The position numbers were made by a program, and so were the translations under genes. Of a stretch of 64,000 nt of DNA, positions 31,141 through 59,982 are shown in pieces. The stretch lies in NCBI RefSeq assembly GCF_002197645.1, contig NZ_CP021876.1, positions 142,455 to 206,454 on the forward strand, read 5' to 3'. This DNA comes from Enterococcus wangshanyuanii (GTDB lineage: Bacteria > Bacillota > Bacilli > Lactobacillales > Enterococcaceae). The notes beneath the pieces are model-generated. The model was given only the letters and a program-made list of their open reading frames with translations. It did not search any database and was not told the origin of the DNA. The number at the start of each line of letters is the position of its first letter. Position 1 is the stretch's first letter.

Positions 31141-31193
31141 ATTATACCAGCATATACTTGTATTGTAAAGTTAATATTCAAGTATATACTGGT
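31141..31193 (-). promoter_or_regulatory. Promoter with large operator palindrome (copy 1)
   Basis: On the minus strand TTTACA (plus 31164-31169), a 17-base spacer and TATAAT (plus 31141-31146) form a promoter. It is embraced by an inverted repeat: ACCAGCATATACTTG (31146-31160) and CAAGTATATACTGGT (31179-31193), with one mismatch. One arm covers the spacer, as expected for a repressor site. Confidence 0.75.
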
Positions 31194-31218
31194 TTTTTTA
31201 ATGAAAATAAGACGAGCT

Positions 31219-32673: not shown

Positions 32674-32724
32674 ATTATACCAGTATATACTTGTATTGTA
32701 AAGAGATTTTGCAAGTATATACTG
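32674..32724. promoter_or_regulatory. Promoter with large operator palindrome (copy 2)
   Basis: Minus-strand TTTACA (plus 32697-32702), 17 bases, TATAAT (plus 32674-32679). The arms ACCAGTATATACTTG (32679-32693) and CAAGTATATACTG (32712-32724) match copy 1 at 31146-31193. On the plus strand, TATACT at 32745-32750 is the likely -10 box of the divergent gene at 32773. One operator could therefore serve both directions. Confidence 0.75.
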
Positions 32725-32772
32725 TTTTTTCTTTCTATCTATGATATACTAAATTCGAAGGAAGGCGGTATT

Positions 32773-33052: not shown

Positions 33053-33062
33053 TTTTGGTTAG

Positions 33063-33470
33063 CATTCGCCCCAGGGCTCATGCTGTAGCTTGACTGCTTT
33101 CAAGGTACAGTCGTTCGCTCGATCCGCTTCGCCTTCGCTCTCTTCCTTTGACGCTTCGCTATCTTGATATCATTCATCGTTTGTGGCTCACAAACGAACG
33201 CTTTTTTATAATGGCAGCCGTCTACGACGTCTACCACCCCACTTAGCTACGCTAATCGGGGCCCCTCTTAAACCACAGACAGTGTTTATTTTTTGTTCGA
33301 CCTTTTTCGGCAACTTCGTTGCCTATACCATAGGCTTCACTTACATTTGCAAGGGAAGATACACCTACACCTGCAGCCAATTGAAATTGGTGCAGCTGTA
33401 CGCCCTTGCAAATCGTTTCTCCTATGGTATTTGCCGGTCAAATCAAACAAAAAATAAAACATGTCTGAAG
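33063..33470 (+). repeat. Structured ~410-bp repeat, copy A
   Basis: The core recurs at 36321-36730 and 38909-39318. It is richer in G+C than the flanking genes and contains nested inverted repeats: TACCATAGG (33326-33334) with CCTATGGTA (33421-33429), ATTTGCAAGGG (33345-33355) with CCCTTGCAAAT (33403-33413), and an inner stem CTGCA.CCAATT / AATTGG.TGCAG (33371-33395). It ends with CTGAA...TTCAG just before the ribosome site of the gene at 33505. The frame at 33183-33473 is a shadow of the structure. Candidate structured RNA leader or single-strand promoter. Confidence 0.85.
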
Positions 33471-33504
33471 TGACTCATTTCAGGCGCACAGGAGGAGTCT
33501 TCAT

Positions 33505-33915
33505 ATGCCTAATACCTATTATGACCAGTTTTCAAAATTACCCCAATCTAAAATGGCTCAAGCTATTTCAGACTTAACTTACCTTTACGAAGAAACCAAA
33601 GTTCCAAAAAAACACTATGAACAACACCTATCGAAAACGATCGTTGAGCTTATGGAATCTAGTGTCGAACTCAACCTCTTAAACACCTATTATTCTATGC
33701 TTAAAGATTTACAAGTTCAAAATCCAAAATGGTTTTTCCAAGCGATCTTATGCCTTGATTTAAAAATCAATCCTAGTACTATCAAACCTTCTGAACATCA
33801 AGCAATTGAAATGGTTTGGAATGACTTTATTAAACAGAAAAAACCAAAGATTATGGACATTGAAGTCCTAGCACAGTTTCAAAAATTCGAAAAAAACGGA
33901 TTAAAAGGAGAATAG
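33505..33915 (+). CDS. Orphan protein behind structured repeat A
   Basis: A 136-residue helical protein (MPNTYYDQFSKLPQSKMAQA) with AGGAGGAG before ATG. It has no signal peptide or known motif. First gene of a plus-strand polycistron of tightly spaced orphans (33505-36149). Confidence 0.65.
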   Translation: MPNTYYDQFSKLPQSKMAQAISDLTYLYEETKVPKKHYEQHLSKTIVELMESSVELNLLNTYYSMLKDLQVQNPKWFFQAILCLDLKINPSTIKPSEHQAIEMVWNDFIKQKKPKIMDIEVLAQFQKFEKNGLKGE

Positions 33916-33918
33916 AAA

Positions 33919-34296
33919 ATGACAAAATCAAACCAACAACAATATCTAATTGGACTAATGGAAGTAGCATTTTCAGACGAGTACTTCCAACTTGCTAAAA
34001 ACAACTGGAATATCCAACTCGTTTCTAAAGAAATGACCCTATTACGTGTCTATGATTCAACACATGAACTCTGCTTTGTCACTAGATATGACGAGGATAA
34101 ACTTTCCTATTTCTTATTATTCGGAACTTACGAGCATCAGGATAGCCAAATCATTCACACGACTGATTCTTGGAAAAAGATTTCAGAATCATCTTTTAAA
34201 GGAAAAAGTCAGGACGAAATTTTTGAAATTATTCGTAAATTATTTGGAGAAAGAAAATGCCACGCTCTTATTGAAGGAGGTGAAATCCATGAGTGA
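33919..34296 (+). CDS. Orphan protein in the repeat A operon
   Basis: A 125-residue protein (MTKSNQQQYLIGLMEVAFSD), three bases after the previous stop, with AAAGGAG in that junction. Beta-rich centre (LLRVYDSTHELCFVTRYD). Unknown family. Its end overlaps the next start by eight bases. Confidence 0.65.
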   Translation: MTKSNQQQYLIGLMEVAFSDEYFQLAKNNWNIQLVSKEMTLLRVYDSTHELCFVTRYDEDKLSYFLLFGTYEHQDSQIIHTTDSWKKISESSFKGKSQDEIFEIIRKLFGERKCHALIEGGEIHE

Positions 34297-34738
34297 TTCT
34301 CTGGTCTTACTATTAAACGGAGGTTGGGAGTTTGTCATCAATGTTAACAGTGCTAGCACTTTAGTCTATCTTTATTTTGGGCACACTGATACTACTGTAG
34401 AAATGCTTATTAACGCAACAGATATCCCTTTTGAAGAAATCTTAGACGAGACTGACGAAATGATTCGAAATGAGATACCTGACTATTACCTACGCCTCCT
34501 AAAAGAAGCTGAACTATTAAACACAGAACAAGAAAACACTCTTTATCGCATTCAAAAAGAAGACGTTGTGTCTTTCCTTTCCAATAATGCGCATGAAAAA
34601 AATGTTCTCGAACTATTTGAGAAAAATTTTTCTTGCATGGAAGACGTTGGTTATTTTGTTAACCACGCAGAAAGCCAATTAGAACTTGAAAAAAGAAGGG
34701 ATATGAAACGTCACTTTGAGTACAATAGCGAATCCTAA
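34289..34738 (+). CDS. Acidic orphan protein in the repeat A operon
   Basis: A 149-residue acidic protein. ATG 34289 follows GAAGGAGG; the same frame is open upstream but that part overlaps the previous gene. The N-terminus (MSDSLVLLLNGGWEFVINVN) is beta-rich, followed by an acidic helix (FEEILDETDEMIRNEI). Acidic size and context fit an anti-restriction-like DNA mimic, without direct proof. Confidence 0.65.
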   Translation: MSDSLVLLLNGGWEFVINVNSASTLVYLYFGHTDTTVEMLINATDIPFEEILDETDEMIRNEIPDYYLRLLKEAELLNTEQENTLYRIQKEDVVSFLSNNAHEKNVLELFEKNFSCMEDVGYFVNHAESQLELEKRRDMKRHFEYNSES

Positions 34739-34739
34739 A

Positions 34740-35093
34740 ATGAATGTTCCCTCGTCTGACGTTCTACAAATTTTGCATGAAATTGACTCTAGATTTTCAC
34801 CAAAAATCAGACCTTACAGCGTAGTTTTAGTTACATTATCGAATTCCAATCAAATTCTTTCTTCTGACATCATTTACACTGGAAAGCTAGAACATCAATT
34901 ATCTGTAAAAAAATTGATTTTAAACATTGCCTTGCGACATCAGGCAGAGCAGTTACTAGTTGTTCAATATCGTTCAGAACCAATTAAGCAACTAACTCCT
35001 ATTGACATTGCTTTTGCCCAAAGCCTAAAAGAAATATGCGGTTGTGTAGACATAAACGTACTTGATTTCATTATTCGTGAAAGGCGCTGTTGA
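34740..35093 (+). CDS. RadC/JAB-like protein lacking the metal-binding residues
   Basis: A 117-residue protein that follows the RadC MPN/JAB fold: LVTLSNSNQILSSDIIYTGK corresponds to the first strands and KKLILNIALRHQAEQLLVVQ to the helix and next strand. SLKEICGCVDINVLDFIIRE corresponds to the LDHiIi end. The HNHPSG-x-x-x-PS-x-xD metal site is replaced by QYRSEPIKQLTPIDIA, so both histidines are gone. It is thus a non-enzymatic RadC relative. The start is ATG 34740, coupled to the previous stop; a TTG at 34716 is an alternative. RadC-like genes are common in anti-restriction and leading-region clusters. Confidence 0.7.
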   Translation: MNVPSSDVLQILHEIDSRFSPKIRPYSVVLVTLSNSNQILSSDIIYTGKLEHQLSVKKLILNIALRHQAEQLLVVQYRSEPIKQLTPIDIAFAQSLKEICGCVDINVLDFIIRERRC

Positions 35094-35148
35094 AGCGCCT
35101 CTCACAAGTGATTCCTTCCCCAAATAAAAATATGAATAGGAGAATATC

Positions 35149-35694
35149 ATGGAAAAAACATTTACATTTGAAGACTTCACTATAAAAAAAGGAATGGAGA
35201 CTAATTGGAACCCCCAATCATTTTTTATTGGTGAAGATATTGCTAGCGTTCATACAGATAAACATGAACTTCAAGTTTTTGCTTACAAATACAAAGAAAG
35301 TGAAACTGCTGAATACTTTGAAATGAACTTTGGAAAAAAAGAGCCGTATGATAATGAAGATTCTTATGATTTCGAACTCATTGAATCAGACGAGTTCTCT
35401 CCCACAGAAGCGAATTTGAATGACTATCATGAAATAATTGAATATCTCTGTAATAATTTTGTTTCAAATTTTATTAAAGCACCCCTTTGTTTTCCCTATA
35501 TCAAATATATTGACCAAACGAATACAGATTCTCTTTGCTTACTATTTGTTGAACGTGACGACTTCAAACTCTATTCAGAAACTGACATACCACAAGAAAA
35601 TTACAACTCTGAATTGACTTGGGAACTCATTAACACTTTAGAAAAAGAAAAGAAAGTTTACTACACTGTGGAAATCATCAAAGATTATCATTAA
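35149..35694 (+). CDS. Very acidic orphan protein in the repeat A operon
   Basis: A 181-residue protein with a strong excess of Asp and Glu, for example NEDSYDFELIESDEFSPTEA. AGGAG is six bases before ATG. No membrane segment or known motif. The charge and size resemble DNA-mimic anti-restriction proteins such as the Ard group, but I see no true sequence match. Confidence 0.65.
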   Translation: MEKTFTFEDFTIKKGMETNWNPQSFFIGEDIASVHTDKHELQVFAYKYKESETAEYFEMNFGKKEPYDNEDSYDFELIESDEFSPTEANLNDYHEIIEYLCNNFVSNFIKAPLCFPYIKYIDQTNTDSLCLLFVERDDFKLYSETDIPQENYNSELTWELINTLEKEKKVYYTVEIIKDYH

Positions 35695-35708
35695 AGGAGA
35701 AATTCAAA

Positions 35709-36149
35709 ATGAACACTAATGAACAAATCAAAAATGAAGCAATTAAAAGAATGCGCCAATTAGATTTGTATGAGGAAGCTATAAACAAATTTATTCAATC
35801 AGGAACGGTCTGCAAATCTGAACCGACAAACCTTTCAATATTAGGGATTGGTTCCAGCGTTATCGGTACTATCTATGAGTTAACCAAAGAACAAAAGAAA
35901 TTTATTTCTGACTTCGAAAAAGAATACGATTCTATGGTCTATCATGTGATCGAAACTAACACCGAATTTGGTTTAGTAAACGACCTTTTGTATGTTTCTA
36001 ATAATACCGATCAGTGGGAAATGGAACAGGAAGACCTTTCCTATAAAACCCCATGTGTCTATTGTGTAAATACAACTTATCCGGACTATTCCGAATTTGG
36101 GTCAATTGGAATTCAATCTAGCGGTGGCGGATTAATCAGAGTAGGTTAA
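35709..36149 (+). CDS. Acidic orphan protein, paralogue of 36761-37222
   Basis: A 146-residue protein (MNTNEQIKNEAIKRMRQLDL). It shares with the protein at 36761-37222 the patterns EAI-RM--LD, a short segment with FCSE or VCKSE, DFEKEY--MVYH and a similar glycine-rich end. AAAGGAG lies 14 bases before the start. It ends the repeat A operon, just before structured repeat B. Function unknown. Confidence 0.65.
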   Translation: MNTNEQIKNEAIKRMRQLDLYEEAINKFIQSGTVCKSEPTNLSILGIGSSVIGTIYELTKEQKKFISDFEKEYDSMVYHVIETNTEFGLVNDLLYVSNNTDQWEMEQEDLSYKTPCVYCVNTTYPDYSEFGSIGIQSSGGGLIRVG

Positions 36150-36206
36150 TATCATTTATCAGAGCCTTTGTAATGATTAAAGAGGCTCTGAATTCTTCTT
36201 AATGAT

Positions 36207-36730
36207 AAAACACGATCACTCCCTTCAAGTCGTTAACGATCGAGTTTAGGCGTGCTTGCAGCTCGCCCTTATTATAGTCGCCGTGCGTTCCGCAAGTCGA
36301 CAAGAGCCCACTCCGTGGTATGCATTCGCCCTGGGGCTCATGCTGCGCTTGAAACAACTCTAGATTCAGTCGTTCTCTCGGTTCGCTTCGCCTTCGTTCT
36401 CTTCCTTTGACGCTTCGCTATCTAGACTTCTTTCATCACCTGGTTACACCAGCTGACCGCTCTTTAGTTATGAGGGCCGCCTGCAGCGTCCCTCACCCCA
36501 CTTGGCTGCGCCAATCGGGGGCCCTTTCAAACCACAGACAGTGTTTATTTTTTGTTCGACCTTTTTCGGCAACTTCGTTGCCTATACCATAGGCTCCGCT
36601 CACATTTGCAAGGGAAAATGCATCTACACCTGCAGCCAATTAAAATTGGTGCGGCTGTACGCCCTTGCAAATCGCTTCTCCTATGGTATTTGCCGGTCAA
36701 ATCAAACAAAAAATAAAACATGTCTGAAGT
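36207..36730 (+). repeat. Structured repeat, copy B
   Basis: Repeats the core of copy A (from 36321) and shares an additional 5' part of about 115 bases only with copy C (GATCACTCCCTTCA, then GTTAACGATCGAGTTTAGGC). The nested stems are kept, while the loops differ: the inner loop reads AATTAAAATT here and AATTGAAATT in copy A, and TGCAGCTG becomes TGCGGCTG. Stem conservation with loop change favours a functional structure. The gene at 36761 follows after CTGAAG...CTCAG and AGGAGG. Confidence 0.85.
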
Positions 36731-36760
36731 AACACCTCTCAGGCGCATAGGAGGAATTTT

Positions 36761-37222
36761 ATGGATTACTTAGAAATTTTAAACGAATCTGAGTTAGAAA
36801 TTGAAGCAATTAACCGAATGACTATTCTAGACATACAAAAAGAATTGATTTCTGATTTTCTTTTACATCGAACTGTATTTTGCTCTGAACTTGCAAGCGT
36901 AGGAATTCTTAATCCCTGTCCATTTGTAAAAAAATATGAATTAGAAGAAGACACCCCAAAAATGATAGAAGATTTTGAAAAAGAATATAAATGTCTTGTG
37001 TACCATACAATCAAAACTCTCACAGATACTGGAACTATTTATAATCTATTCTATGTTCGCGAAAACAAGGAAGATTGGGAAACCCAACAAGACGATATTT
37101 ATGCTTCGCTTCCTTTTGTAGCAACTATCAACTTTTCGTCACCGGAAAATGTTAAGTTCGGTCAGATCCAAGTCGGACATCTCACTGGTGGACTATATAA
37201 CAGATTTTATGAGGAGAGATAA
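36761..37222 (+). CDS. Acidic orphan protein, paralogue of 35709-36149
   Basis: A 153-residue protein (MDYLEILNESELEIEAINRM) with AGGAGG before ATG. It matches the protein at 35709 along most of its length (EAINRMTILD, FCSELAS, DFEKEYKCLVYHTI). The two copies sit on the two sides of structured repeat B, so a duplication involving the repeat is plausible. Confidence 0.65.
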   Translation: MDYLEILNESELEIEAINRMTILDIQKELISDFLLHRTVFCSELASVGILNPCPFVKKYELEEDTPKMIEDFEKEYKCLVYHTIKTLTDTGTIYNLFYVRENKEDWETQQDDIYASLPFVATINFSSPENVKFGQIQVGHLTGGLYNRFYEER

Positions 37223-37223
37223 C

Positions 37224-38747
37224 ATGCTAAAAGATAGACTAAAAAGAGAACGGTACAAAGACCCAAACCCTGTATTTGATTTACTTTGCAATGATCTAAA
37301 ACACTTAAACTCTGGTAGCAACAAAGTTTTGATACCCGACGCCGATTTAGGTGAACTTGCTCTTAGTTCCATGAAATTTCGATATGGAGTGAAGGAAGAA
37401 TATGCCCTATTAGAAAAAGACTTTGAGAAATCAAACAACCTTGAAAATCAAGGATTCGAAGTAGTCGGTACTGATTTCTTAACGTTTGCCACACATATTG
37501 AATTTGACATTATTCTTTTAGATCCACCCGTAGAAAAAAGTGAAGACTACTTGTTAAAAGCATTCGAACTCGCTCAAAAGCAAGTAGACAAAAGTTGCTA
37601 CATTTCAGCGCTCATACGCGCTGACATCATTCAAAATCCAAGCACAGCATTACAAGCAGCACTTGAAAACAACGAAACAGAAATAACCTTTCATAAAAAT
37701 GTTAAGCCTGAATCAAAAGAAGAGGTCGCCCTAGTTCGCGTATCAGTCACTAAAGCGACAGATAATGTCCACAAGATTTATGACAGACTTTTAGCTACTA
37801 AAGGCTTTGAACCTGCTCAGACAGCACTAGAAAGAGGTCTAAGCACCATTGTTTCTGATCGTGATCTTGAAGAGCGTTTAAAAGATATCCGCTTTCTTAT
37901 TAGTTCTTACAATGAACATATTTCTTTACTTAAGAAAAAATATCTGTTTGACAATTCACTCAATATGTTTGAGTCGATTATGAAACAAAAGCATAAATTT
38001 GGATCGTTTAGTTATAGACGAAATGACCTAACTCTTAATCAAGAAATAAAAAGCATTCGCAGTCAGTATTGGGAGAAAATCCTAAAAACTGACGAGTTCC
38101 GCAAAAAATTAACACGGCATGGATCAAGTTTGATCACTGATAAAATTGATTCCGCCACTAAACTTGAAATCACGGAAGAAAATGTTCTTTTATTGCTCAC
38201 TGCTTTAATGTCAAATGGATATGAGGTAATTCTTGATAGTTGTGTAGAATGGTTCAAAAAAATGACCGGCAATCACCAAAATGAATACAGCAAAAACATT
38301 CACTACTACAATGGATTCAAGACAAATGACGCCTTCAAGGTAAATTCAAAAATAATAATTCCTGCTTACCAAGCTTCATCTTATTATGAAACAGTATCAT
38401 TCGGCTATGGTCATCCTTTAGAAGAAAACTTTAAGCATATAACACACGGAATGCAAGACTACATGAACGATCTAATAACCATGTTTAAACTGATCAAACC
38501 AGATATTCCAACAACTTTTACTGCGAATGACTACGGCGATTTAGAAAACGAATTTCTTCGTTTTAAAGTGTTCAAAAAAGGAACTATTCACATTTGGTTT
38601 AAAGACCTAGAAACACTTGATAAATTCAATCTAATATGTGGGCAAAAATTTGGTTGGGTTCCTTCATCTGAGGAAATGAAGCAAGATCCCGAAGCATTAC
38701 GCTTTGCCAAAAATGAATTTCCAAATATTCAAAACTTGCTGAATTAA
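37224..38747 (+). CDS. DUF4942 protein with methyltransferase-like N-terminus
   Basis: A 508-residue protein. Residues 1-170 resemble a class I SAM-dependent methyltransferase fold: VLIPDADLGELALSSM near the cofactor site and DIILLDPPVEKSED, a D-P-P-x motif like that of N6-adenine enzymes but lacking the usual aromatic residue. The C-terminal half matches DUF4942 (NIHYYNGFKTNDAFKVNSKI, YGHPLEENFKH, FLRFKVFKKGTIHIWF). Such proteins occur on mobile elements. It may protect incoming DNA by methylation or have lost activity. GAGGAGAG precedes ATG 37224, directly after the previous stop. Confidence 0.75.
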   Translation: MLKDRLKRERYKDPNPVFDLLCNDLKHLNSGSNKVLIPDADLGELALSSMKFRYGVKEEYALLEKDFEKSNNLENQGFEVVGTDFLTFATHIEFDIILLDPPVEKSEDYLLKAFELAQKQVDKSCYISALIRADIIQNPSTALQAALENNETEITFHKNVKPESKEEVALVRVSVTKATDNVHKIYDRLLATKGFEPAQTALERGLSTIVSDRDLEERLKDIRFLISSYNEHISLLKKKYLFDNSLNMFESIMKQKHKFGSFSYRRNDLTLNQEIKSIRSQYWEKILKTDEFRKKLTRHGSSLITDKIDSATKLEITEENVLLLLTALMSNGYEVILDSCVEWFKKMTGNHQNEYSKNIHYYNGFKTNDAFKVNSKIIIPAYQASSYYETVSFGYGHPLEENFKHITHGMQDYMNDLITMFKLIKPDIPTTFTANDYGDLENEFLRFKVFKKGTIHIWFKDLETLDKFNLICGQKFGWVPSSEEMKQDPEALRFAKNEFPNIQNLLN

Positions 38748-38793
38748 AACAAGAGTCTCTTTGCAAATGCAAAGAGACTCCCTCCTTACGGAG

Positions 38794-39318
38794 AAAACAC
38801 GATCACTCCCTTCAGGTCGTCAACGATCGAGTTTAGGCGTGCTTGCAGCTCGCCCTTATCATAGTCGCCGTGCGTTACGCAAGTCGACAAGAGCCCACTT
38901 CGTGGTATGCATTCGCCCTGGGGCTCATGCTGCGCTTGAAACAACTCTAGATTCAGTCGTTCTCTCGGTTCGCTTCGCCTTCGTTCTCTTCCTTTGACGC
39001 TTCGCTATCTAGACTTCTTTCATCATCTGGTTACACCAGCTGACCGCTCTTTAGTTATGAGGGCCGCCTGCGTCGTCCCTCACCCCACTTGGCTGCGCCA
39101 ATCGGGGGCCCTTTTAAACCACAGACAGTGTTTATTTTTTGTTCGACCTTTTTCGGCAACTTCGTTGCCTATACCATAGGCTCCGCTCACATTTGCAAGG
39201 GAAGATACACCTACACCTGCAGCCAATTATAAATTGGTGCAGCTGTACGCCCTTGCAAATTGCTTCTCCTATGGTATTTGCCGGTCAAATCAAACAAAAA
39301 ATAAAACATGTCTGAAGG
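38794..39318 (+). repeat. Structured repeat, copy C
   Basis: Nearly identical to copy B over its full length (from GATCACTCCCTTCA) and to copy A from 38909. The inner stem loop is AATTATAAATT here, a third variant with the stem kept. It ends shortly before the ribosome site of the gene at 39352. Confidence 0.85.
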
Positions 39319-39351
39319 GAAGGTCTCATGCATGACTTAGGAGGAATTCTT

Positions 39352-39681
39352 ATGGAACCAGGTAAACTAATAGTCGCAAAAAAAGTAAATGGTGAAGTAC
39401 AAACTGAATATTACTACTCTTTTGAGCCCTTGACCGACATTAGTATGCTTCTTGGTACAACAAATTTATTTTCAATGGATCTTAGTAAAACACTCACTGT
39501 CTTTCACGGATTGTATCTTCCTGATCAAGCAAAAGAAACCATCACTATTCGCTGGGAAGATCGCATTGAAACATTTACCGGCAGCATTATATTTGCTGGT
39601 CGTGATTTACTAAAAAATGTTCTCAGCTTGGACCCGATTGCTGTAGAGGAAGTCAGAATAAAATTAAAGGAGATCAAGTAG
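39352..39681 (+). CDS. Orphan protein behind structured repeat C
   Basis: A 109-residue beta-rich protein (MEPGKLIVAKKVNGEVQTEY). ATG 39352 follows TAGGAGG; an in-frame ATG at 39328 precedes that site. Unknown family. Followed within one base by a small membrane protein gene. Confidence 0.6.
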   Translation: MEPGKLIVAKKVNGEVQTEYYYSFEPLTDISMLLGTTNLFSMDLSKTLTVFHGLYLPDQAKETITIRWEDRIETFTGSIIFAGRDLLKNVLSLDPIAVEEVRIKLKEIK

Positions 39682-39682
39682 C

Positions 39683-39880
39683 ATGAAAAAAACTGATCAT
39701 CTGTTGCTTTTTATGCACCATCTAGTACGCGCAGCAAAGGGTATTCTGGTCCTATTTTCAATAGGAATCATACTATTGAGCATCCAAACCTATCAAGCTC
39801 AAACCCACTCGTATCAATCAAATGTAATTGTTTTTACCGGCATTCTATCGTTAATTTTTCTTTTTTGCTGGAGAGATTGA
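39683..39880 (+). CDS. Small two-helix membrane protein
   Basis: A 65-residue protein with two hydrophobic segments (GILVLFSIGIILLSI and VIVFTGILSLIFLF). AAAGGAG lies in the end of the previous gene (39668-39674). It may be a membrane-acting accessory such as an entry-exclusion or toxin-like peptide; unknown. Confidence 0.6.
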   Translation: MKKTDHLLLFMHHLVRAAKGILVLFSIGIILLSIQTYQAQTHSYQSNVIVFTGILSLIFLFCWRD

Positions 39881-39953
39881 GTAAAATGCTGATTTAATTG
39901 GGCTAATTGTGTAAAATGAATGAGAGCAACTATTCTGAAGGAGGAAATACATT

Positions 39954-40424
39954 ATGGAAAATGCAACATGCAAATACTGCGGAACGGATCTAGATCAACA
40001 CTTGACCTGCTCATACTGCAGCATAACTTTTTCTCCGGAAGAAGTATGTTTCAATCAGGAACGCCCACATCAAATGGTCGATAGCATTCCAATTATCGAC
40101 GACTTCGAAACAATGATTTTTGAGCTTATGTCGCGACCAACTGAGACATTGCTTAAAGAGAAAACGATCACTCTTTACTATCTTTTGCGTGCAGCAAGAA
40201 AAGCAAAAGATAAATACTTCAGAGCAAAAGACCAGGAACGTCTGACGTTCTTCCAAAAGAAAGTATATACCATCGAAAATATTCTACTGGAGAGAGAAGG
40301 AACATTCCCGTTGTCGATCTCTGATAACTTGCTGAAGAAAAAAAGTATTCAGGTCAACAAGTTTGAGCAGTCACTTGCTGAGAACAACAGAGATAAAATG
40401 ACTAGACTCATTATCCGAATGTAA
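39954..40424 (+). CDS. Zinc-ribbon protein of unknown function
   Basis: A 156-residue cytoplasmic protein. The N-terminus CKYCGTDLDQHLTCSYCSI holds two CxxC pairs, a small zinc ribbon. The remainder is helical and basic (LLRAARKAKDKYFRAK), which could bind nucleic acid. GAAGGAGG precedes ATG. It is the last gene of the plus-strand set and has a terminator at 40450-40490. Confidence 0.7.
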   Translation: MENATCKYCGTDLDQHLTCSYCSITFSPEEVCFNQERPHQMVDSIPIIDDFETMIFELMSRPTETLLKEKTITLYYLLRAARKAKDKYFRAKDQERLTFFQKKVYTIENILLEREGTFPLSISDNLLKKKSIQVNKFEQSLAENNRDKMTRLIIRM

Positions 40425-40855: not shown

Positions 40856-41069
40856 GGGGTTCACGTATCAATGGAACGAAATTTTACTCTAAGATTTCTT
40901 ACATGAATTTGTAAACCCTATAAAATCAACGTTTCTAAATTTAATTATGAGAACTTACTCATTTTACAGAGGTTTTCTCTCGGAACAATGGAACGAAATT
41001 TTACGGTAGGGGTTAAAACACGAACAATAAAAAGAGCTATCTATCTTTTTTAGATAAATAGCTGTGTGA

Positions 41070-44063
41070 TTATTGTCCTAAGGGACGAAATTCTCCTTCG
41101 TTTAATTGCTCATTATATTTGAAAGAATATTTCCCCATGAAATTAATGTGTTCTGATACTAGAGGGGAAGAGAATTGAAGAACTTCTTCTTGTATTTGGT
41201 TCTCTGAATTAGCTTCCTGAAGTTGTTCTATAGCTTTTTCCATATAAAGCGTGTTCCAATAAATAATTATATTTGCAACAAGTCCTAAAGCGTTTAATTG
41301 GTTTTCCATACCATCAAAATAGCTTTGATAGATTCGTCCATTTTTACCATAGCATATTTTTCTATACAAGCTATGGCGAGATTCTCCTTTATTCAGTTGT
41401 TCTAGAATATTTCGTGCGTATTCTTCATCAGATAGATATCTGAGTTGATGTTTTGTTTTAAATATTTTTCCAACTTCAATTAATGCACGCCCCAATGGAG
41501 TAGGATTTCCTTGATGTTGGAGAGCACGAATAAGATAGCTGGCTTGGACGGTTCCTGATTTTAGAGAACCTGCAATTCGTAAGATATCATCCCACTCTTG
41601 CTCTATAATTGTTGTATTTATAGTATTTTTTGAATGTTCGTTCAGAATTTTGTAATTAGCATTTTTGTCTATTCTCCATATTTTTGTTTCGTTTGCTTTA
41701 GCTATTCGGGGGCTAAATTGAAAACCTAGTATTCCAAATAATCCAAATACAAGATCACTGTATCCAGCAGTATCAGTCATTATCTGACTAGGTGTTAATG
41801 TACTTGTTTGATTTAACAGTCCTTCAAGCAAATAGACTGAATCTCTAATCGTCCCAGAAATAACCATACCATGAAATCCAACATAGGAATCAGATAGAAA
41901 GTTATAGTATGTGATCCCTTTACCTCGACCAAAATATTTAGGGTTCCGTCCTGAATGTAGAGATTTCTTTGGTGTAGTAAAGCGTATACCGTCCGCTGAA
42001 GCCATATCTCCTGTTCCCCATATATAAGGTAAAGCAAGTTTCTGATAGGCGTCTACGACCTTATTATTGGCTGCTGTTAAAGTATCTAATCGTATATAGT
42101 TTTGATTGACGTAGGATAAGCGGTCATTTTTTAAACTTTCTGTACTCTTCTTAGCAACGGGTGACAGCCCTATATTGCACGCTTCAGCTAATAACACTGC
42201 TAAGATACTTATATCCAGCTCTTTCATACGCGATCGATTTTCATTTAAATGTGAAAAACACTCTGTAAGCCTTAGTCGCTGATTTACCTCTAATAATATT
42301 TCAGGAAGGTCAACAATGGGAAGATTTCTATGAATTTCCTCAATAAGACGTGGTTTAGATAAACTTTGTCTTTTTAGCGGACTAATAATCAATTCTGTTT
42401 GTCCATTTTTTTCCTCTATCCTAGCCATGTTGCTATTATTCCAGTTTTTTAGTGTTTCTCTATAAGACATTTCTAAACTGATTTTAAAATCTTCTACAGC
42501 AATAGCTCCGTCCTCTGCAAGACCTAACTGATTTACAAAGGATTTTCTTTGCTCATTCCATACATTTTTAGGTATTAGATTTTGCAATGGATCATTATAT
42601 CTATGACTATAAGGGACATAAACAGTATGTGTCTTTATGCCTTTTATAAAAAGTTCCATAGCAGCAATTATGATTCCTTTATTAGCATATGCTTGATTTT
42701 TATCGATAAAATTATGCCACTTGGTTGGCAGATAGTCTTGTATTTTTTCAAAATCTTGATATCGAAGAAATAGATCTCCTTTATCTCTTAAAAAAGACCA
42801 AATATAAGCTACTGGACTATCTTTATCACTAACTAAAAAAGGAATATGAGCAAGAATATCCGGAAGTAACCTTTTAAATTTTGAAAATGAGTTTAATAAT
42901 TCTTTGATTGCCACAGGTTCTTTATCCGAACTCACAATACGTTTTACTTTTGACACAGCTGCTACTATCTCTTGTTTCTCGCGTAGCTCTAAAACATAAT
43001 CTAACAGCTTCTCAGGTGGAGTTTGTTCGTCAATCAGATCCTCTACAATATGAGACAGCATGGCTGCTGCATTGTCCAAATCTTTTAGTGATCGGAGTCG
43101 TTCTTGCTGTTCCTTTTTCTTTGCAAGGTTGATAATACTAGTAAAATACTTTTCTAATGCTAATAATAATTCGTCCATAGCAACTGATCGATACTCTGCA
43201 ATAAATGAAACTAGGTAAGCTAAACGTCTACTTTCAGGCATACGCTGAATACTTTGCGATTTGGCTTTAGCTGTATACTCAGCATATAATTTTATCTTCC
43301 CTTTAGGAATCTGGCTGAAATCCCAAAAATCAACTGAAAAAGAAGCAAATTCTTTTATTCTTTGAAATCCACGTTTAATCTCATAATAAGACGGTTCTTT
43401 TAGAGGTTCTCTTAAAGCGTCCAACTTTACTGTAAACAAAGACGTTTTTCCTTCCATAAAAAACAGCGTCAATTGATTGATTCGTTCAATTTCCTTCTTA
43501 CTAGGAATATTTACAATTGCTTGCTCTATATCTTTGGTTACAGCGTCTATAATGCGCGATATAAACCGTTCGAATGTAGTAAGACCTGGGAGAATTATTT
43601 TTTCGTTTATACACTTATTCAAGAAACGATCAGCAAGAAGAGTTGTTTGCTCTGTAGAATACCAAGCACCTTCATATATCCACTGCTCTAAATAATCTAA
43701 AACGGCTTGGTCATGGAACTGCCTGTAAGAGTATAGTTCCTGAATCATGAGTGCATGCTGCTTGATTGTAGGAATTCTTGTATAGTAAGAGAACATACGA
43801 CTTTCAATAGACAACTGCTCTGCCATGTACTCTATTACTTCATTAGGAACATTTGTTAAATCAGAAAGAAATGTTCCTAAAAATCGTACAGTCCCTAACT
43901 GTACTGCAAAACCAATTTTAGTACTATCGTTTCGCAAAGTTTTAATAATTGATTTGTCATAATCGTCCAAATGAAAGTATTTCACTAATTGTTCATCGGA
44001 AGGAAGGCCCGCATAAGATCCAAAAGACTGTTTTTGTTCTTTACTCATTATCTGTACAGGCAT
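41070..44063 (-). CDS. tnpA: Tn3-family transposase
   Basis: A 997-residue DDE transposase, full length for the family. The N-terminal DUF4158 domain (MPVQIMSKEQKQSFGSYAGL) binds DNA. The catalytic core has WGTGDMASADGIRF, TPSQIMTDTAGYSD (second Asp) and the C-terminal EWDDILRIAGSLKSGTVQAS region. It joins the resolvase gene without a gap (TAAATG), so both are one transcript. Intact and probably active for replicative transposition. Confidence 0.95.
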   Translation of the reverse strand: MPVQIMSKEQKQSFGSYAGLPSDEQLVKYFHLDDYDKSIIKTLRNDSTKIGFAVQLGTVRFLGTFLSDLTNVPNEVIEYMAEQLSIESRMFSYYTRIPTIKQHALMIQELYSYRQFHDQAVLDYLEQWIYEGAWYSTEQTTLLADRFLNKCINEKIILPGLTTFERFISRIIDAVTKDIEQAIVNIPSKKEIERINQLTLFFMEGKTSLFTVKLDALREPLKEPSYYEIKRGFQRIKEFASFSVDFWDFSQIPKGKIKLYAEYTAKAKSQSIQRMPESRRLAYLVSFIAEYRSVAMDELLLALEKYFTSIINLAKKKEQQERLRSLKDLDNAAAMLSHIVEDLIDEQTPPEKLLDYVLELREKQEIVAAVSKVKRIVSSDKEPVAIKELLNSFSKFKRLLPDILAHIPFLVSDKDSPVAYIWSFLRDKGDLFLRYQDFEKIQDYLPTKWHNFIDKNQAYANKGIIIAAMELFIKGIKTHTVYVPYSHRYNDPLQNLIPKNVWNEQRKSFVNQLGLAEDGAIAVEDFKISLEMSYRETLKNWNNSNMARIEEKNGQTELIISPLKRQSLSKPRLIEEIHRNLPIVDLPEILLEVNQRLRLTECFSHLNENRSRMKELDISILAVLLAEACNIGLSPVAKKSTESLKNDRLSYVNQNYIRLDTLTAANNKVVDAYQKLALPYIWGTGDMASADGIRFTTPKKSLHSGRNPKYFGRGKGITYYNFLSDSYVGFHGMVISGTIRDSVYLLEGLLNQTSTLTPSQIMTDTAGYSDLVFGLFGILGFQFSPRIAKANETKIWRIDKNANYKILNEHSKNTINTTIIEQEWDDILRIAGSLKSGTVQASYLIRALQHQGNPTPLGRALIEVGKIFKTKHQLRYLSDEEYARNILEQLNKGESRHSLYRKICYGKNGRIYQSYFDGMENQLNALGLVANIIIYWNTLYMEKAIEQLQEANSENQIQEEVLQFSSPLVSEHINFMGKYSFKYNEQLNEGEFRPLGQ

Positions 44064-44678
44064 TTAGTCACCTGCCATTTCTTGTTCGAACTCTTTTACT
44101 CGACGATAAAATGTGCTTGGGGACAATTCTAGTTTATTTATAGTATCAGTTGCTGTTTGCTCCCCATTTTTCCAACTAAAATACTGTCTTTTGAATTCTT
44201 CTGTTATTGCCAATTTAGGTCTACCAAAGACCGTACCAGCAGATTTTGCAATTTCAATCCCTTCAGTTTGACGCAGTTTGCTCTTCTTTCGTTCCTGATC
44301 TGCTACATAAGAAAGCATGCTCAAAAACTGATCTTCTAATAAAAGACCAATGTCCCCCATAGTTTTAAACTTTCTACTATCAAATAATTCTGAATTTTCT
44401 AGAACAATAATATCTGCTTTTATCTTTCTTGTAATATACTTCCATTCTTCAATTACACCAGAATAGTTTCTCCCTAAACGATCTAAAGAGTCTAAGTAAA
44501 CAATATCTCCAGAACGAAGCATATGAAGTAATAGTTGATACTGTGGACGATCAAACTCAGCACCTGATTGTTTATCGACAAATATATAACGAGATTCAAT
44601 ACCTAAATCATTAAACTTCTGTATTTGTCGATCTAAATTTTGTTCTTTAGTGGAAACTCTAGCATAGCCAAAAAGCAT
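44064..44678 (-). CDS. tnpR: Serine resolvase of the Tn3-family element
   Basis: A 204-residue resolvase/invertase. The nucleophile Ser9 lies in MLFGYARVSTKEQ; the family markers LDRLGRNY and FLSMLSYVADQERKK follow. The C-terminal helix-turn-helix is ATDTINKLELSPSTFYRRVK. It resolves cointegrates at the res region just upstream of its start. Confidence 0.95.
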   Translation of the reverse strand: MLFGYARVSTKEQNLDRQIQKFNDLGIESRYIFVDKQSGAEFDRPQYQLLLHMLRSGDIVYLDSLDRLGRNYSGVIEEWKYITRKIKADIIVLENSELFDSRKFKTMGDIGLLLEDQFLSMLSYVADQERKKSKLRQTEGIEIAKSAGTVFGRPKLAITEEFKRQYFSWKNGEQTATDTINKLELSPSTFYRRVKEFEQEMAGD

Positions 44679-55340: not shown

Positions 55341-55453
55341 GCTATAATAAGAATGAAAAGAGAGATATGCTCTAACATATCTCTCTAATGTAGAACCGTT
55401 TAAGACGGTAGCAGAATTTAATTAGTTATAAAAATAACCGTTATCCGGCCAAA
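55341..55453 (+). ncRNA. Antitoxin RNA of a holin-like type I toxin locus, 5' part
   Basis: An extended -10 box TGCTATAAT (55341-55349) is followed by a hairpin AGAGAGATATG (55359-55369) / CATATCTCTCT (55376-55386), a second one (ACCGTTTAAGACGGT) and the left arm of a terminator (AAAATAACCGT at 55431-55441). This is the order seen in the antitoxin RNAs of enterococcal holin-like toxins. The right arm (ACGGTTATTTTTTT) now lies at about 57165-57178, beyond the inserted IS element. Confidence 0.65.
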
Positions 55454-57186: not shown

Positions 57187-57312
57187 TTAAGCATGGTCCA
57201 CAATCAATTTAATCAAAGCAATGGTAAACATACCAAACTTAGAATCAATTGTATTGTTTCTAATGCGGACAAAAGGCTTTCTCCTTTCATAGATTTCAGT
57301 ACTTACTTTCAT
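57187..57312 (-). pseudogene. Holin-like type I toxin peptide, frameshifted
   Basis: ATG 57312 gives MKVSTEIYERR; the core starts at TTG 57272, behind AAAGGAG, with SALETIQLIL and, one frame over, FGMFTIALIKLIVDHA. This matches the enterococcal holin-like toxin pattern (IYERRGLLS-AEAL-LMISFG). The frame is restored by one more base in the A3 run 57235-57237 (plus strand). A single membrane helix forms the toxic peptide. The terminator shared with its antisense RNA has been split by the IS element. Confidence 0.7.
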
Positions 57313-57511
57313 AAGCACCACCACCCTCCGGAAGTAGCCACCGTCATAACTTTTCTACATTGATTAGTATATACACTTGATATTTTTCTTTTTACTTTTT
57401 TCTAAAGACTAATCAATTTCTTTTGGAGAATCTATCTCCAATTTCTAACATAAGGTTTCCTGCTATTGTATTTTACTTTGGTTCAATTCTGTCGGCTATT
57501 GTTTTTTCGTT

Positions 57512-57871
57512 TTAGTTCAGCTGCCGACCATACTTTATCAACCACTTCTTTTTTTCTGTAATTGTTAGTATTAGCATAATAAATTGAAGAACCAATAAAG
57601 CAATGAGAATACCAATACATACATTAATTATTATCATAAGCAACTTCCTTTCTAATCCTTTTTGGGAATCATTCAATTCGTTTAGAAAAATATCTGTTTT
57701 TGAAATAATCCAAACGATCACTACTGACCTCATTACATATGAATGTAATTCATGCTCCATTTCATTGTATAAATCTTTTAAGCTGCTGTTGACTGCTTCA
57801 ACATCGCCCTTGTCTTCAGCATTTCTAAAGTCACTTATAATTTCAGGAATGTTTACAAAATTCACATCCAT
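57512..57871 (-). CDS. Small membrane protein of unknown function
   Basis: A 119-residue protein with an acidic helical N-terminus (MDVNFVNIPEIISDFRNAED) and two membrane helices in the second half (residues about 45-60 and 80-105). GAAGTG precedes ATG. It is separ ated from the upstream gene by a single stop codon. Unknown family; last gene of a minus-strand run. Confidence 0.6.
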   Translation of the reverse strand: MDVNFVNIPEIISDFRNAEDKGDVEAVNSSLKDLYNEMEHELHSYVMRSVVIVWIISKTDIFLNELNDSQKGLERKLLMIIINVCIGILIALLVLQFIMLILTITEKKKWLIKYGRQLN

Positions 57872-58533
57872 TTATATCACTTCTTTCTGATCCTTTTTGA
57901 TACTTTTCTCTTTTTCAATTAATTCAGCAATTTTTTCTAGTTCATAAATATAACTAGGTTCTTGAAAATTAAATGATATGTTAAACAAGGTTCCTCTTAT
58001 AGTACTTAGGCTTTTAAAAGCAAAATCAAATAAATACAGAACATCTGATAAATAAATTGGATTTGACTGTATCAAATTTTCTCGACTTTCCTCATTTGAT
58101 ATACGTTTATCTAAATGTGCAAATCTCTGTTTCGAATTTTTTTTTAAATGTGATATCGGTTTTTCTAAACTATCCAATTCTTCTTCCATTTGAACAAGTT
58201 CAGACTTTAATTTCTCATATGTTGTGTGTTGATTATAGCCAGTCTTTTTGTAGTAATCTTCCGTAAATAATCATTTGAAATCCTGATAATCTTAGGTACT
58301 GAATGAGAATCTTTATTATCATACAATTTGGAAGCTGTAATAGAACATCTCCAACCATAACGTTTTGTGTATAAGCAAAATAATCTCCATATTCACTAAG
58401 AGCATTATTTTTTTTTTTGTTACTTCAGACACAGCTAATATCGCTGGCGTAGGTTTTTTTTTGTTCCTAATATTTGTTTAAATATCCATTTAATACTTCT
58501 TTCTAGCTTTTCTAGTTGATTTTTTTGATTCAT
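57872..58533 (-). pseudogene. Charged coiled-coil protein, four apparent frameshifts
   Basis: ATG 58533 follows AGGAAG. The protein begins MNQKNQLEKLERSIKWIFKQ and can be followed through four breaks to the open frame 57872-58189 (ISHLKKNSKQRFAHLDKRIS). Restoring one A in each of the runs at 58452-58460 and 58409-58419, near 58376 and near 58253 gives about 221 residues, including the sensible joins YTQKRYGWRCSITASKLYDN and NDYLRKDYYKKTGYN. No known family; the long central coiled coil suggests a scaffolding role. Confidence 0.6.
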
Positions 58534-58703
58534 AATTTTCACTTCCTCATTTTTAGATCTTTTTGAGAATTACGAAAAAATCACTTGAACGTAAAATTCA
58601 CGAATTTATGTTTACATACCATCTAATAGATTCAAACTTCAGTATGTTGTGTGATTTTAGTATTTCTCTGTAAAATGGTCCTTTAAAATTCATATTACTC
58701 ACT

Positions 58704-58925
58704 TCACTTGGAACTTTGGCAACACCACTTTTTTTCCTTTATCATCAATGAAGTCTTGATCAATATTTGGCCATAGAAAATCTTCCAACTTGCAACATTT
58801 GGATTCCTTCTCTAGCACTTCAGAATCTGTATAACTATCCTTTAAGTTTACTAGTCCTTTTTCTGTCACATCACCATAAAAAGTTAACCCTGGTATATTC
58901 TTCTTTTGAAATCTTTAAACTCCAT
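58704..58925 (-). pseudogene. Small orphan protein, frameshifted
   Basis: MEFKDFK then, with one more A in the T4 run 58904-58907 (plus strand), KKNIPGLTFYGDVTEKGLVN to PKFQVK; about 74 residues. AGAAGG precedes the start, next to a copy of the second junction motif AAAAAGGATCAG. A further 31-codon frame (58598-58693, MNFKGPFYREILKSHNILKF) follows it directly and is uncertain. Confidence 0.5.
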
Positions 58926-59119
58926 TTATTCGCCTTCTTTCTGATCCTTTTTGACGTATAGTTCGCTATTATGAGTTTGGCCATTGTCCTGGCATCAACG
59001 ATCGTTCGTTTCTAGTTGTTGTTTACCTGGTAGATCTCGCACTGCAGCTGGCAGAAATCAACTACTTTTACGAACGATCTTTTTAAGACTTTTAGTGATC
59101 TTTCTACATAAGTTGCCAT

Positions 59120-59254
59120 TCATTTATTATTTTCTTTAAAAAAACCAGCCAGTTCTTGGTTTTTACGTTCTATAGTTGAGCTTCAATCGTTTTATTTTTG
59201 AGCAACCCATAAAAGATAGGCTGCTTCTTCTTCTGTCATTTCGATACTGATCAA
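59120..59254 (-). pseudogene. Small acidic protein, frameshifted
   Basis: TTG 59254 follows GAAGGTAAGAG. The frame ISIEMTEEEAAYLLWVAQK is lost in an A5 run, and with two restored bases continues NKTIEAQL then ERKNQELAGFFKENNK. Its stop couples to another possible small gene (59012-59119, MATYVERSLKVLKRSF, 35 residues). Both are of unknown function. Confidence 0.45.
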
Positions 59255-59270
59255 TTCTCTTACCTTCTTT

Positions 59271-59491
59271 CTAATCCTTTTGAGAATATCCTCATTTACT
59301 TTTGCGTATTCAAATAATTCAATTATTTTTCCAAGAGGAACATTGTTCAGATCATAATCGCCTTTTCTTATCTTACTTATCGTACTTTTGACACGCTAGT
59401 ATCTTCACCTATCCTATATCCAGTGATAAGTAGTTACCTTTTGAGTCTTTCTTGCTTATTAACAGCTTGATTAAATCAAATCTATACTCAT
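59271..59491 (-). pseudogene. Small Xre-like regulator, frameshifted
   Basis: ATG 59491 follows a strong GGAGG. With three or four restored bases the product is about 75 residues: FDLIKLLISKKDSKGNYLSL, then VSKSTISKIRKGDYDLNN and PLGKIIELFEYAKVNEDIL. SKSTISKIRKG is the recognition-helix region of this small enterococcal regulator group. The repaired stop lies inside a second-type junction motif (AAAAAGGATTAG). It could control the promoter palindrome CTACTAAGT/ACTTAGTAG at 59511-59546. Confidence 0.6.
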
Positions 59492-59507
59492 AGTTACCTC
59501 CAAAGAC

Positions 59508-59616
59508 TTGCTACTAAGTCTGTTTTTTGTATAATATACTTAGTAGAAGTTTTAGCTAGTCAGGCTATTTTGTTACAGAGGTTTGTTCTGTATCAGCAGA
59601 GTAAACCTCTTTTTGT
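59508..59616 (+). ncRNA. Candidate small RNA with own promoter and terminator
   Basis: TTGCTA (59508-59513), a 16-base spacer and TATAAT (59530-59535) lie inside the inverted repeat CTACTAAGT (59511-59519) / ACTTAGTAG (59538-59546). About 35 bases downstream a terminator AGAGGTTT...AAACCTCTTTTTG (about 59577-59616) ends the RNA, giving some 70-75 nt. It would run antisense to the 3' end of the gene at 59573-59804. Confidence 0.45.
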
Positions 59617-59804
59617 TCTTGTTGAAATAGTCAATTTCTGAGAAGGTAGCTTCGCGACACTCAATTTGAAGTTGAGTATTTGTCACATAAGATTCATTAA
59701 ATTTTCTAAATAAATAGATTTGATTTTGTAGAAGATCCCTTCTTTATCAACTATTTTAAAAATTCCAAAATTCACACCTGCATAGTAATTGTTTATCTTT
59801 TCAT
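59573..59804 (-). pseudogene. Small orphan protein, frameshifted
   Basis: ATG 59804 follows GAAAGGAAG. With one restored A the product starts KKINNYYAGVNFGIFKIVDK, and after a second break continues NESYVTNTQLQIECREATFS to LLIQNKPL; about 78 residues. It is directly behind the palindromic promoter at 59834-59862. Unknown family. Confidence 0.5.
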
Positions 59805-59833
59805 AAAATTACACTTCCTTTCTTTATATACTT

Positions 59834-59874
59834 ATTATATAGTATATTTATATATACGTCAATATAAATATACT
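59834..59874 (-). promoter_or_regulatory. Promoter inside a palindrome
   Basis: Minus-strand TTGACG (plus 59857-59862), 17 bases, TATAAT (plus 59834-59839). The arms AGTATATTTATAT (59841-59853) and ATATAAATATACT (59862-59874) pair perfectly. The geometry equals that of the operators at 31141 and 32674, but the arm sequence differs. Confidence 0.7.
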
Positions 59875-59982
59875 GGTTTGGGGATATTTTTTACAAAAAA
59901 AGAAGTGCCCTAGACACCTCTTTTACTGATCCTTTTTAGGAGAAAATGATATTGTCTGTCTTTCCCCATTTTTTTCGAAAAA

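Follow-up and report, generated by a model that had tools for sequence, protein, structure and literature searches.

The closest described counterpart of the sequences treated here is EGeRS1 of the Bacillus plasmid pLS20 and its relatives. EGeRS1-B possesses no promoter in double-stranded DNA and blocks readthrough, and the authors judged pLS20 EGeRS1 to be no single-stranded DNA promoter, owing to the strand of the nick site (nic) (PMC8708921). In Frpo of F and the ssi sequences of ColIb-P9, which are repeated foldable sequences of the leading region, the transferred strand is the template of the genes (PMC11541004). We analyzed a 64,000-nucleotide stretch of Enterococcus wangshanyuanii DNA (the window; contig NZ_CP021876.1, positions 142,455 to 206,454), which carries three copies of a long foldable element, each ahead of a block of small genes. 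We consider it fairly probable that these elements act as control sequences in single-stranded DNA, as promoters and perhaps also as priming sites, in the region that MobP2/MOBL conjugative plasmids use for establishment (the leading region).

The three copies share one orientation, the plus strand, which is that of the genes that they precede: copy 1 at 33055-33500, copy 2 at 36195-36760 and copy 3 at 38782-39350. Each stops at an AGGAGG ribosome site directly before the first gene of a new block (33505, 36761 and 39352). Copies 2 and 3 are full length (approximately 560 bp) and share 96.5% identity across 536 bp. Copy 1 is truncated, with the first 130 bp or so of the 5′ part absent; its identity with copy 2 amounts to 84.7% across 443 bp. 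The elements are richer in G+C (0.47-0.49) than the genes that separate them (0.34-0.35). The first-pass annotation had described a G+C-richer core of 410 bp, present three times in one orientation and ending each time at the ribosome site of a gene block. All of this was borne out at the positions given there, and copies 2 and 3 proved longer than the core, their 5′ end reaching approximately 130 bp beyond it. An Rfam search of the elements gave no family match, and no phage record matched the element. A sigma-70-like consensus scan returned 16 sites (21.6 expected), none of them in the gene direction inside the window elements.

The nested stems named in the first-pass annotation are present, and the stems are conserved while the loops differ. 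We take the minus strand to be the one that folds. On it, the long 3′ hairpin lies at 33326-33429 in copy 1, where TACCATAGG and CCTATGGTA enclose the inner stems ATTTGCAAGGG/CCCTTGCAAAT and CCAATT/AATTGG (alignment helices 9-11), and at 36585-36688 and 39172-39276 in copies 2 and 3. A small hairpin, GGCAAC-GAA-GTTGCC (helix 8), occurs at 33309-33323, 36568-36582 and 39155-39169, and has a GNA triloop on the minus strand. In copy 3, the outer A+T-rich stem (39131-39305, minus strand) pairs TTTATTTTTTGTT (39131-39143) with AACAAAAAATAAA (39293-39305) just 5′ of the ribosome site. This basal stem measures 12-13 bp in eight of the nine copies inspected, and its end is near the ribosome site.

To describe the fold, 21 of the 32 collected Enterococcus-type elements were aligned, and a structure of 79 pairs was derived without wobble pairs. 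In this structure, 96.3% of the 1659 cells pair, as compared with 31-42% when it is slid along the alignment, a percentage biased upward because the structure was derived from the same alignment. Both sides have changed at 47 of the 79 pairs, and the covariation score was 0.402 against 0.137 in shuffled alignments, none of 500 being as high. The measure of further pair types was not above the shuffles (216 of 500). Among 13 Bacillus elements, compensatory change was found at 8 of 58 agreed pairs. Folding was far beyond chance in the 18 of 32 elements tested, with z-scores of -5 to -15 depending on strand and copy. The elements have a conserved single-strand fold, as Frpo and ssi do.

Three kinds of evidence bear on which strand folds. 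With DNA parameters, the energy was lower on the template strand in 18/18 Enterococcus-type and 5/5 pLS20 elements, and the z-scores favoured this strand in 14/18 and 5/5, respectively. Taken alone, this test is weak because ordinary DNA also differs between its strands. The second kind is the polarity of mismatches. Stems agreed by both strands were chosen without wobble, and a mismatch was counted when the same sequence had Watson-Crick pairs on either side of it. The unit was the distinct pair and type, pairs with fewer than three Watson-Crick sequences were dropped, and T.T mismatches (2 and 1) were set aside. If there is no strand bias, the two kinds of mismatch are expected to be equal. 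In gene sense, the 32 Enterococcus-type elements have nine A.C, eight C.T and six C.C against two A.G, two G.T and no G.G; the 13 Bacillus elements have four A.C against one G.T. In total, 27 mismatches contain C and five contain G (nominal p 1e-4, the sequences being related), and those with C are G.T, G.A and G.G on the template strand. An earlier, stricter count gave 17 against 3. Over all consensus pairs, with the flanking rule off, the count is less lopsided (A.C at 14 pairs, G.T at 9).

The third kind is the polarity of triloops. A GNA loop confers exceptional stability on a DNA hairpin. Among distinct perfect triloop hairpins of the 32 elements, 36 have GNA on the template strand, two have it on the other strand and 30 have other loops; by occurrence, the numbers are 185, 24 and 83. 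The corresponding numbers for the rest of the window are 25 and 15. Three alignment helices have a GNA loop on the template strand in 20, 21 and 15 of the 21 elements, with a variable middle base. From energy, mismatch polarity and triloop polarity together, we conclude that selection for folding acts on the template strand; the conclusion is firm for the Enterococcus type and weaker for Bacillus.

This mode of folding suggests that the genes are switched on while the entering plasmid is still single-stranded. If the template strand is both the folded and the entering strand, a single-strand promoter is the simplest reading. In the mechanism that we propose, the elements would be silent in double-stranded DNA. 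The transferred strand entering the recipient would be the template of the genes behind each element, and the element would adopt a branched fold, with an A+T-rich duplex at its base that reaches as far as the ribosome site. Starting there, the RNA polymerase of the host would transcribe the gene block on a single-stranded template, its RNA may also serve as the primer for the second strand, and expression would end once the plasmid is double-stranded. The absence of a promoter and the readthrough block of EGeRS1-B are what is expected of a switch that is off in double-stranded DNA. We infer the identity of the transferred strand, folding in vivo, polymerase entry, transient expression and an anti-defence role; directly observed are the elements, their covariation and context, the polarity of their mismatches and loops, and a conserved transfer-origin core on the opposite strand.

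The possibility of a single-strand promoter depends on which strand is transferred, and the origin of transfer (oriT) was therefore compared among MobP2 plasmids. The sequence CCTTATGCTCTT was found in all nine distinct plasmids or contigs (11 loci) that reach upstream of mobP2, and inverted repeats precede it in the five that were read. For further MobP2 loci, the best 80 of 110, from named genomes, were used. Within 2.6 kb upstream of mobP2, the 12-mer core was exact in 49 of the 80 and present with up to two mismatches in 76. After the printed sites were read and L153 and L156-L158 discounted, the core remained in 72/80, on the mobP2 strand in 58 and on the opposite strand in 14. In 13 of the 80 loci, the core is CTTATCCTGTT, and it matches the MOBP nic consensus (C/T)ATCCTG(C/T), a site immediately preceded by an inverted repeat (PMC3772185). 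A 10-mer of the published pLS20 nic was found upstream of mobP2 in only one of the 80 loci, pBatNRS213. In oriTLS20, the competing candidate cleavage site would be GGGGGCCGG, on the strand opposite the relaxase-coding strand. Since the MOBP-like core and its upstream repeats are conserved, the strand that reads CTTATGCTC, which is the relaxase-coding strand in pLS20 and Enterococcus, would be the cleaved one by homology. We thus argue that the nic strand behind the objection to EGeRS1 may have been misassigned.

The position of the elements relative to this core was analyzed in 13 plasmids, namely eight of the nine Enterococcus records and five Bacillus plasmids chosen for diversity out of 65 records. 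In each of them, CTTATGCTCTT occurs a single time, and a MobP2 gene follows it on that strand at a distance of 0.3-1.0 kb; the backward pattern used as a control gave one match in the 13 plasmids together. The element match is on the strand opposite the core in 13/13, these plasmids being related and not independent trials; in two Bacillus plasmids, the match accounts for just 32-40% of the query. The first element met in the reading direction of the core lies at 6-16 kb in 11 plasmids and at approximately 30 kb in pBS72, and the match in a Bacillus pumilus plasmid lies at 45 of 85 kb, roughly half the circle away.

In the 14 loci with the core on the opposite strand, mainly clostridial, the core is inverted relative to mobP2, together with the upstream repeats where these were read (L113, L116, L118, L119, L124, L125, L130, L131, L135, L140, L141, L149, L152 and L155). 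A fold scan was made with overlapping windows and four cuts in 55 loci, 43 with the ordinary oriT and 12 inverted. In the inverted class, the folded windows were on the predicted entering side in 9/10 at the strictest cut and 25/30 at the loosest (background 574/1329), and the predicted transferred strand was the more stable in 7/10 at the strictest cut (background 277/1329). In the ordinary class, 14 of 18 windows were on the predicted side at the loosest cut (background 2879/5108); the strictest cut left two windows, one on each side. L116 and L119 have no direct repeats, and their folded windows cannot be equated with elements for this reason.

Taken together, we give an even chance to the following proposal: the transferred strand of MobP2/MOBL plasmids has been wrongly assigned, and the true nic is the MOBP-like site between CTTATGCTC and TT on the relaxase-coding strand of pLS20 and the Enterococcus plasmids; the relaxase gene, ssb and the element-driven blocks enter first; and the EGeRS1-like elements of Bacillus and Enterococcus constitute a separate, long and branched class of Gram-positive single-strand promoters. 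A survey of leading regions fixed the leading side on the assumption that the relaxosome genes lag, and showed no enrichment for MOBP2 (PMC11541004). For the ordinary class, this assumption would be reversed.

Several results weigh against this proposal or against the elements as single-strand promoters. The pLS20 nick was mapped directly, in the strand other than that of the core and approximately 40 bp away from it, and mobilisation by orientation agreed with the mapped nick (PMC5313138). In the fold scan, the strand result of the inverted class weakens to 16/30 at the loosest cut, and in the ordinary class the predicted transferred strand was the more stable in 10/18 windows at the -3 cut and 2/7 at the -3.5 cut, with a background of 3770/5108. 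The window's own plasmid, designated B below, shows neither a MobP2 relaxase nor the oriT core. No -35/-10 pair common to all copies was seen, by inspection and not by a systematic search; one candidate, TTGCCG-17-AATAAA, was picked out by eye in copy 3 and is absent from some relatives. The 13 Bacillus elements have no GNA triloops. Homology to EGeRS1, for which more than 60% had been set, was not detected: blastn with the Enterococcus element found no Bacillus record, an EGeRS1 query found no Enterococcus record, and an nhmmer profile of the Enterococcus set had no match in five Bacillus loci. Finally, GNA-loop polarity was tried as a general mark of mobP2 loci and rejected, being absent across 70 of them. 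The counts on strand T and the other strand were 56 and 49 (ordinary) and 11 and 12 (inverted) on the leading side, and 45 and 30 (ordinary) and 14 and 22 (inverted) on the lagging side.

Other explanations of the elements were considered. As structured RNA leaders, they would be part of transcripts that start at promoters further upstream, and the folded leader at the 5′ end (a terminator, a processing signal or a ligand switch) would control the genes in the recipient. The ends at ribosome sites are in agreement with this, as is the pLS20 counterpart, which blocks readthrough in one orientation only (PMC8708921); the plus strand of copy 3 also folds well as RNA (z -5.3). However, the gene-sense mismatches in conserved stems are A.C over G.T (13 against 3 distinct), and the GNA loops are mostly on the opposite strand. 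The elements also have no Rfam match and no promoter-like site in the gene direction within them. We regard RNA leaders as unlikely. The published view can also be extended, so that the coding strand is transferred, the genes lag and the elements act by a double-stranded or RNA mechanism such as repression or insulation. We hold this to be quite unlikely: the core with upstream inverted repeats in 72/80 loci, where printed sites were read, the near absence of the reported 10-mer (pBatNRS213 alone) and the opposite strands of element and core in 13/13 plasmids disagree with it, although RelLS20 nick mapping and orientation-dependent mobilisation (PMC5313138), the reasoning of the pLS20 authors (PMC8708921) and the weak strand result in the ordinary-oriT loci speak for it.

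In a third explanation, the elements are single-strand origins of the sso/ssi type, in which the folded transferred strand primes complementary-strand synthesis through RNA polymerase or primase, and expression is secondary. The folded strand is indeed the template strand, there are multiple copies, and TAGCG(A/T), the CS-6 hexamer of sso (PMC10378824), is on the template strand in 30 of the 32 Enterococcus-type elements and on the other strand in none. The hexamer is weak evidence because it is a single homologous one, and it is present in 0/13 Bacillus elements. Moreover, priming alone would not need copies that end at the ribosome site of a gene block. We consider this explanation quite unlikely.

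The early interpretation as single-strand promoters was supported in part. The structural polarity is in line with a transferred strand that folds and serves as the template. The expected relaxase and oriT were not found on the element's own replicon, which shows neither MobP2 nor the oriT core. The final 64 kb of a 206-kb contig make up the window. By our reading of the overlaps, this contig passes twice through parts of two plasmids sharing a Tn3 transposon. Plasmid A would be the first ~76.8 kb, and plasmid B, which bears the repeats, ~98.2-187.4 kb. Since the small contigs C2 and C4 duplicate the same region, the eight element matches in the genome represent three real places and assembly duplicates. 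Plasmid A has an oriT core at C3:57085, followed by a 686-amino-acid MobP2-like relaxase (57834-59894) and, further on, an ssb-like gene, and has no DNA match to the element family. Contig C5 carries the single PF03432 relaxase that was found. In the sister genome G013, of the same genus, three elements with 79-81% DNA identity to those of the window lie on one contig, and relatives of nine of the 11 element-headed proteins occur in the same order (30-67% identity). Immediately past this region comes a module of ssb, a gene of the DUF3991 type, MobP2 and the oriT core; the first two were recognised by where they lie and how their sequences start, without a profile. The place of this module is occupied in the window by a Tn3-family transposase and resolvase (41070-44678, minus strand). 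Judged from this comparison, the relaxase and oriT are lost from the window's plasmid, and since both are absent there, its element system is probably a relic or an orphan.

In the assembly, the Tn3 element (window 41070-44678; contigs C2, C3 and C4) joins A and B in all four ways, which suggests either an equilibrium between a cointegrate and its component plasmids or assembly paths that ran through the repeat. Beside it is a 47-bp direct repeat (40861-40907 and 40978-41024; 74%).

By blastn against PLSDB (E 1e-5), the element was found in Enterococcus plasmids only, in seven records through a 64-bp block; a relative used as the query found nine Enterococcus records. Eight of the nine carry 2-4 elements each, and the ninth is a single 87-bp match. 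In annotated relatives, the elements precede blocks of small hypothetical genes, including AbrB/MazF pairs or an N-6 DNA methylase, and point toward ssb, DUF3991 and mobP2 on the opposite strand, mobP2 being found in all eight. The conjugative-region context claimed early on is thus seen in the relatives. Among 105 genomes of the family, for each of which only five first-look candidates were scored so that absences are soft, convincing element DNA occurs in G000 and G013 only and a MobP2 relative in 22. On these two numbers, the element is apparently not a common property of all MobP2 plasmids. Matches of 24-38 bp in 11 other family genomes (E 1e-4 to 1e-3) were treated as chance. G029, G035 and G051, whose MobP2 is 31-34% identical, have no repeats of element length, only one self-match of 116 bp and one of 98 bp. 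In a limited literature search, we did not find the Enterococcus element family, its strand polarity or the alternative nic described.

All three gene blocks are on the plus strand. Block 1 (33505-36149) consists of six small genes, 33505-33915, 33919-34296, 34289-34738, 34716-35093 (RadC-like JAB), 35149-35694 and 35709-36149; all except the RadC-like one have G013 relatives in the same order. Block 2 (36761-38747) comprises 36761-37222 and 37224-38747, whose product has the C-terminal part of DUF4942. Block 3 (39352-40424) contains 39352-39681, 39683-39880, for which no relative was found in G013, and 39954-40424, whose product is 66% identical to a G013 protein. RadC-like JAB and DUF4942 are the only families convincingly recognised among the element-headed proteins, and no viral contig carrying a DUF4942 protein was confirmed. 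The products of 35709-36149 and 36761-37222, which flank copy 2 in different blocks, are acidic paralogues with 38% identity. Acidity as a hint of DNA mimicry was rejected: the isoelectric point is 4.3-4.5 in four of the 11 element-headed proteins, and the set does not differ from other open reading frames of the window (p 0.14).

Elsewhere in the window, a 57-bp direct repeat (31141-31197 and 32674-32730; 88%) of the type TATACCAG.ATATACTTG lies ahead of minus-strand genes and looks like a shared promoter-operator. Rfam matches were obtained to the RatA antitoxin RNA (55345-55433, plus strand) and Listeria rli28 (57207-57382, minus strand), and stretches overlapping both recur in the sister contig G013:C5 with 83-86% identity.

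If the proposal is correct, it would explain how establishment genes are expressed on entry in a large class of Gram-positive conjugative plasmids, and the main published objection to EGeRS1 as single-strand promoters would be removed. It could also account for the missing anti-defence enrichment of MOBP2 in the survey (PMC11541004), provided that its MOBP2 is the MobP2 considered here, and the element-headed genes would become candidates for new anti-defence genes. pLS20 in laboratory Bacillus subtilis offers a system in which the proposal is testable.

Single-strand origins are folded, strand-specific DNA. The elements share the TAGCG(A/T) motif with the CS-6-type origins of rolling-circle plasmids and differ from them in being tied to gene starts in several copies, with no rolling-circle replicon shown. 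EGeRS2/Reg576 of p576 likewise drives establishment operons, but does so with ordinary strong promoters and a repressor (PMC8708921), which were not seen here. The likeness to Frpo and ssi lies in repeated, foldable leading-region sequences; the present elements are longer and branched, have no recognisable -35/-10 pair and are Gram-positive, and the relaxase gene would itself be on the entering side. As for EGeRS1, GNA triloops and the TAGCG block are confined to the Enterococcus-type set. In design, however, the window elements agree with EGeRS1 in size, G+C content, inverted repeats, position at the ribosome site and copy number. EGeRS1 sequences are 400-750 bp long and G+C-rich, with many inverted repeats, and several copies, one without its 5′ part, lie in the same direction directly ahead of the ribosome sites of establishment operons (PMC8708921). 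Both kinds belong to MobP2/MOBL plasmids with the same order of relaxase, DUF3991, ssb and operons, and both, as compared by eye, have an A+T-rich basal stem before the ribosome site and a stem of the ACAAGGG/CCCTTGT type.

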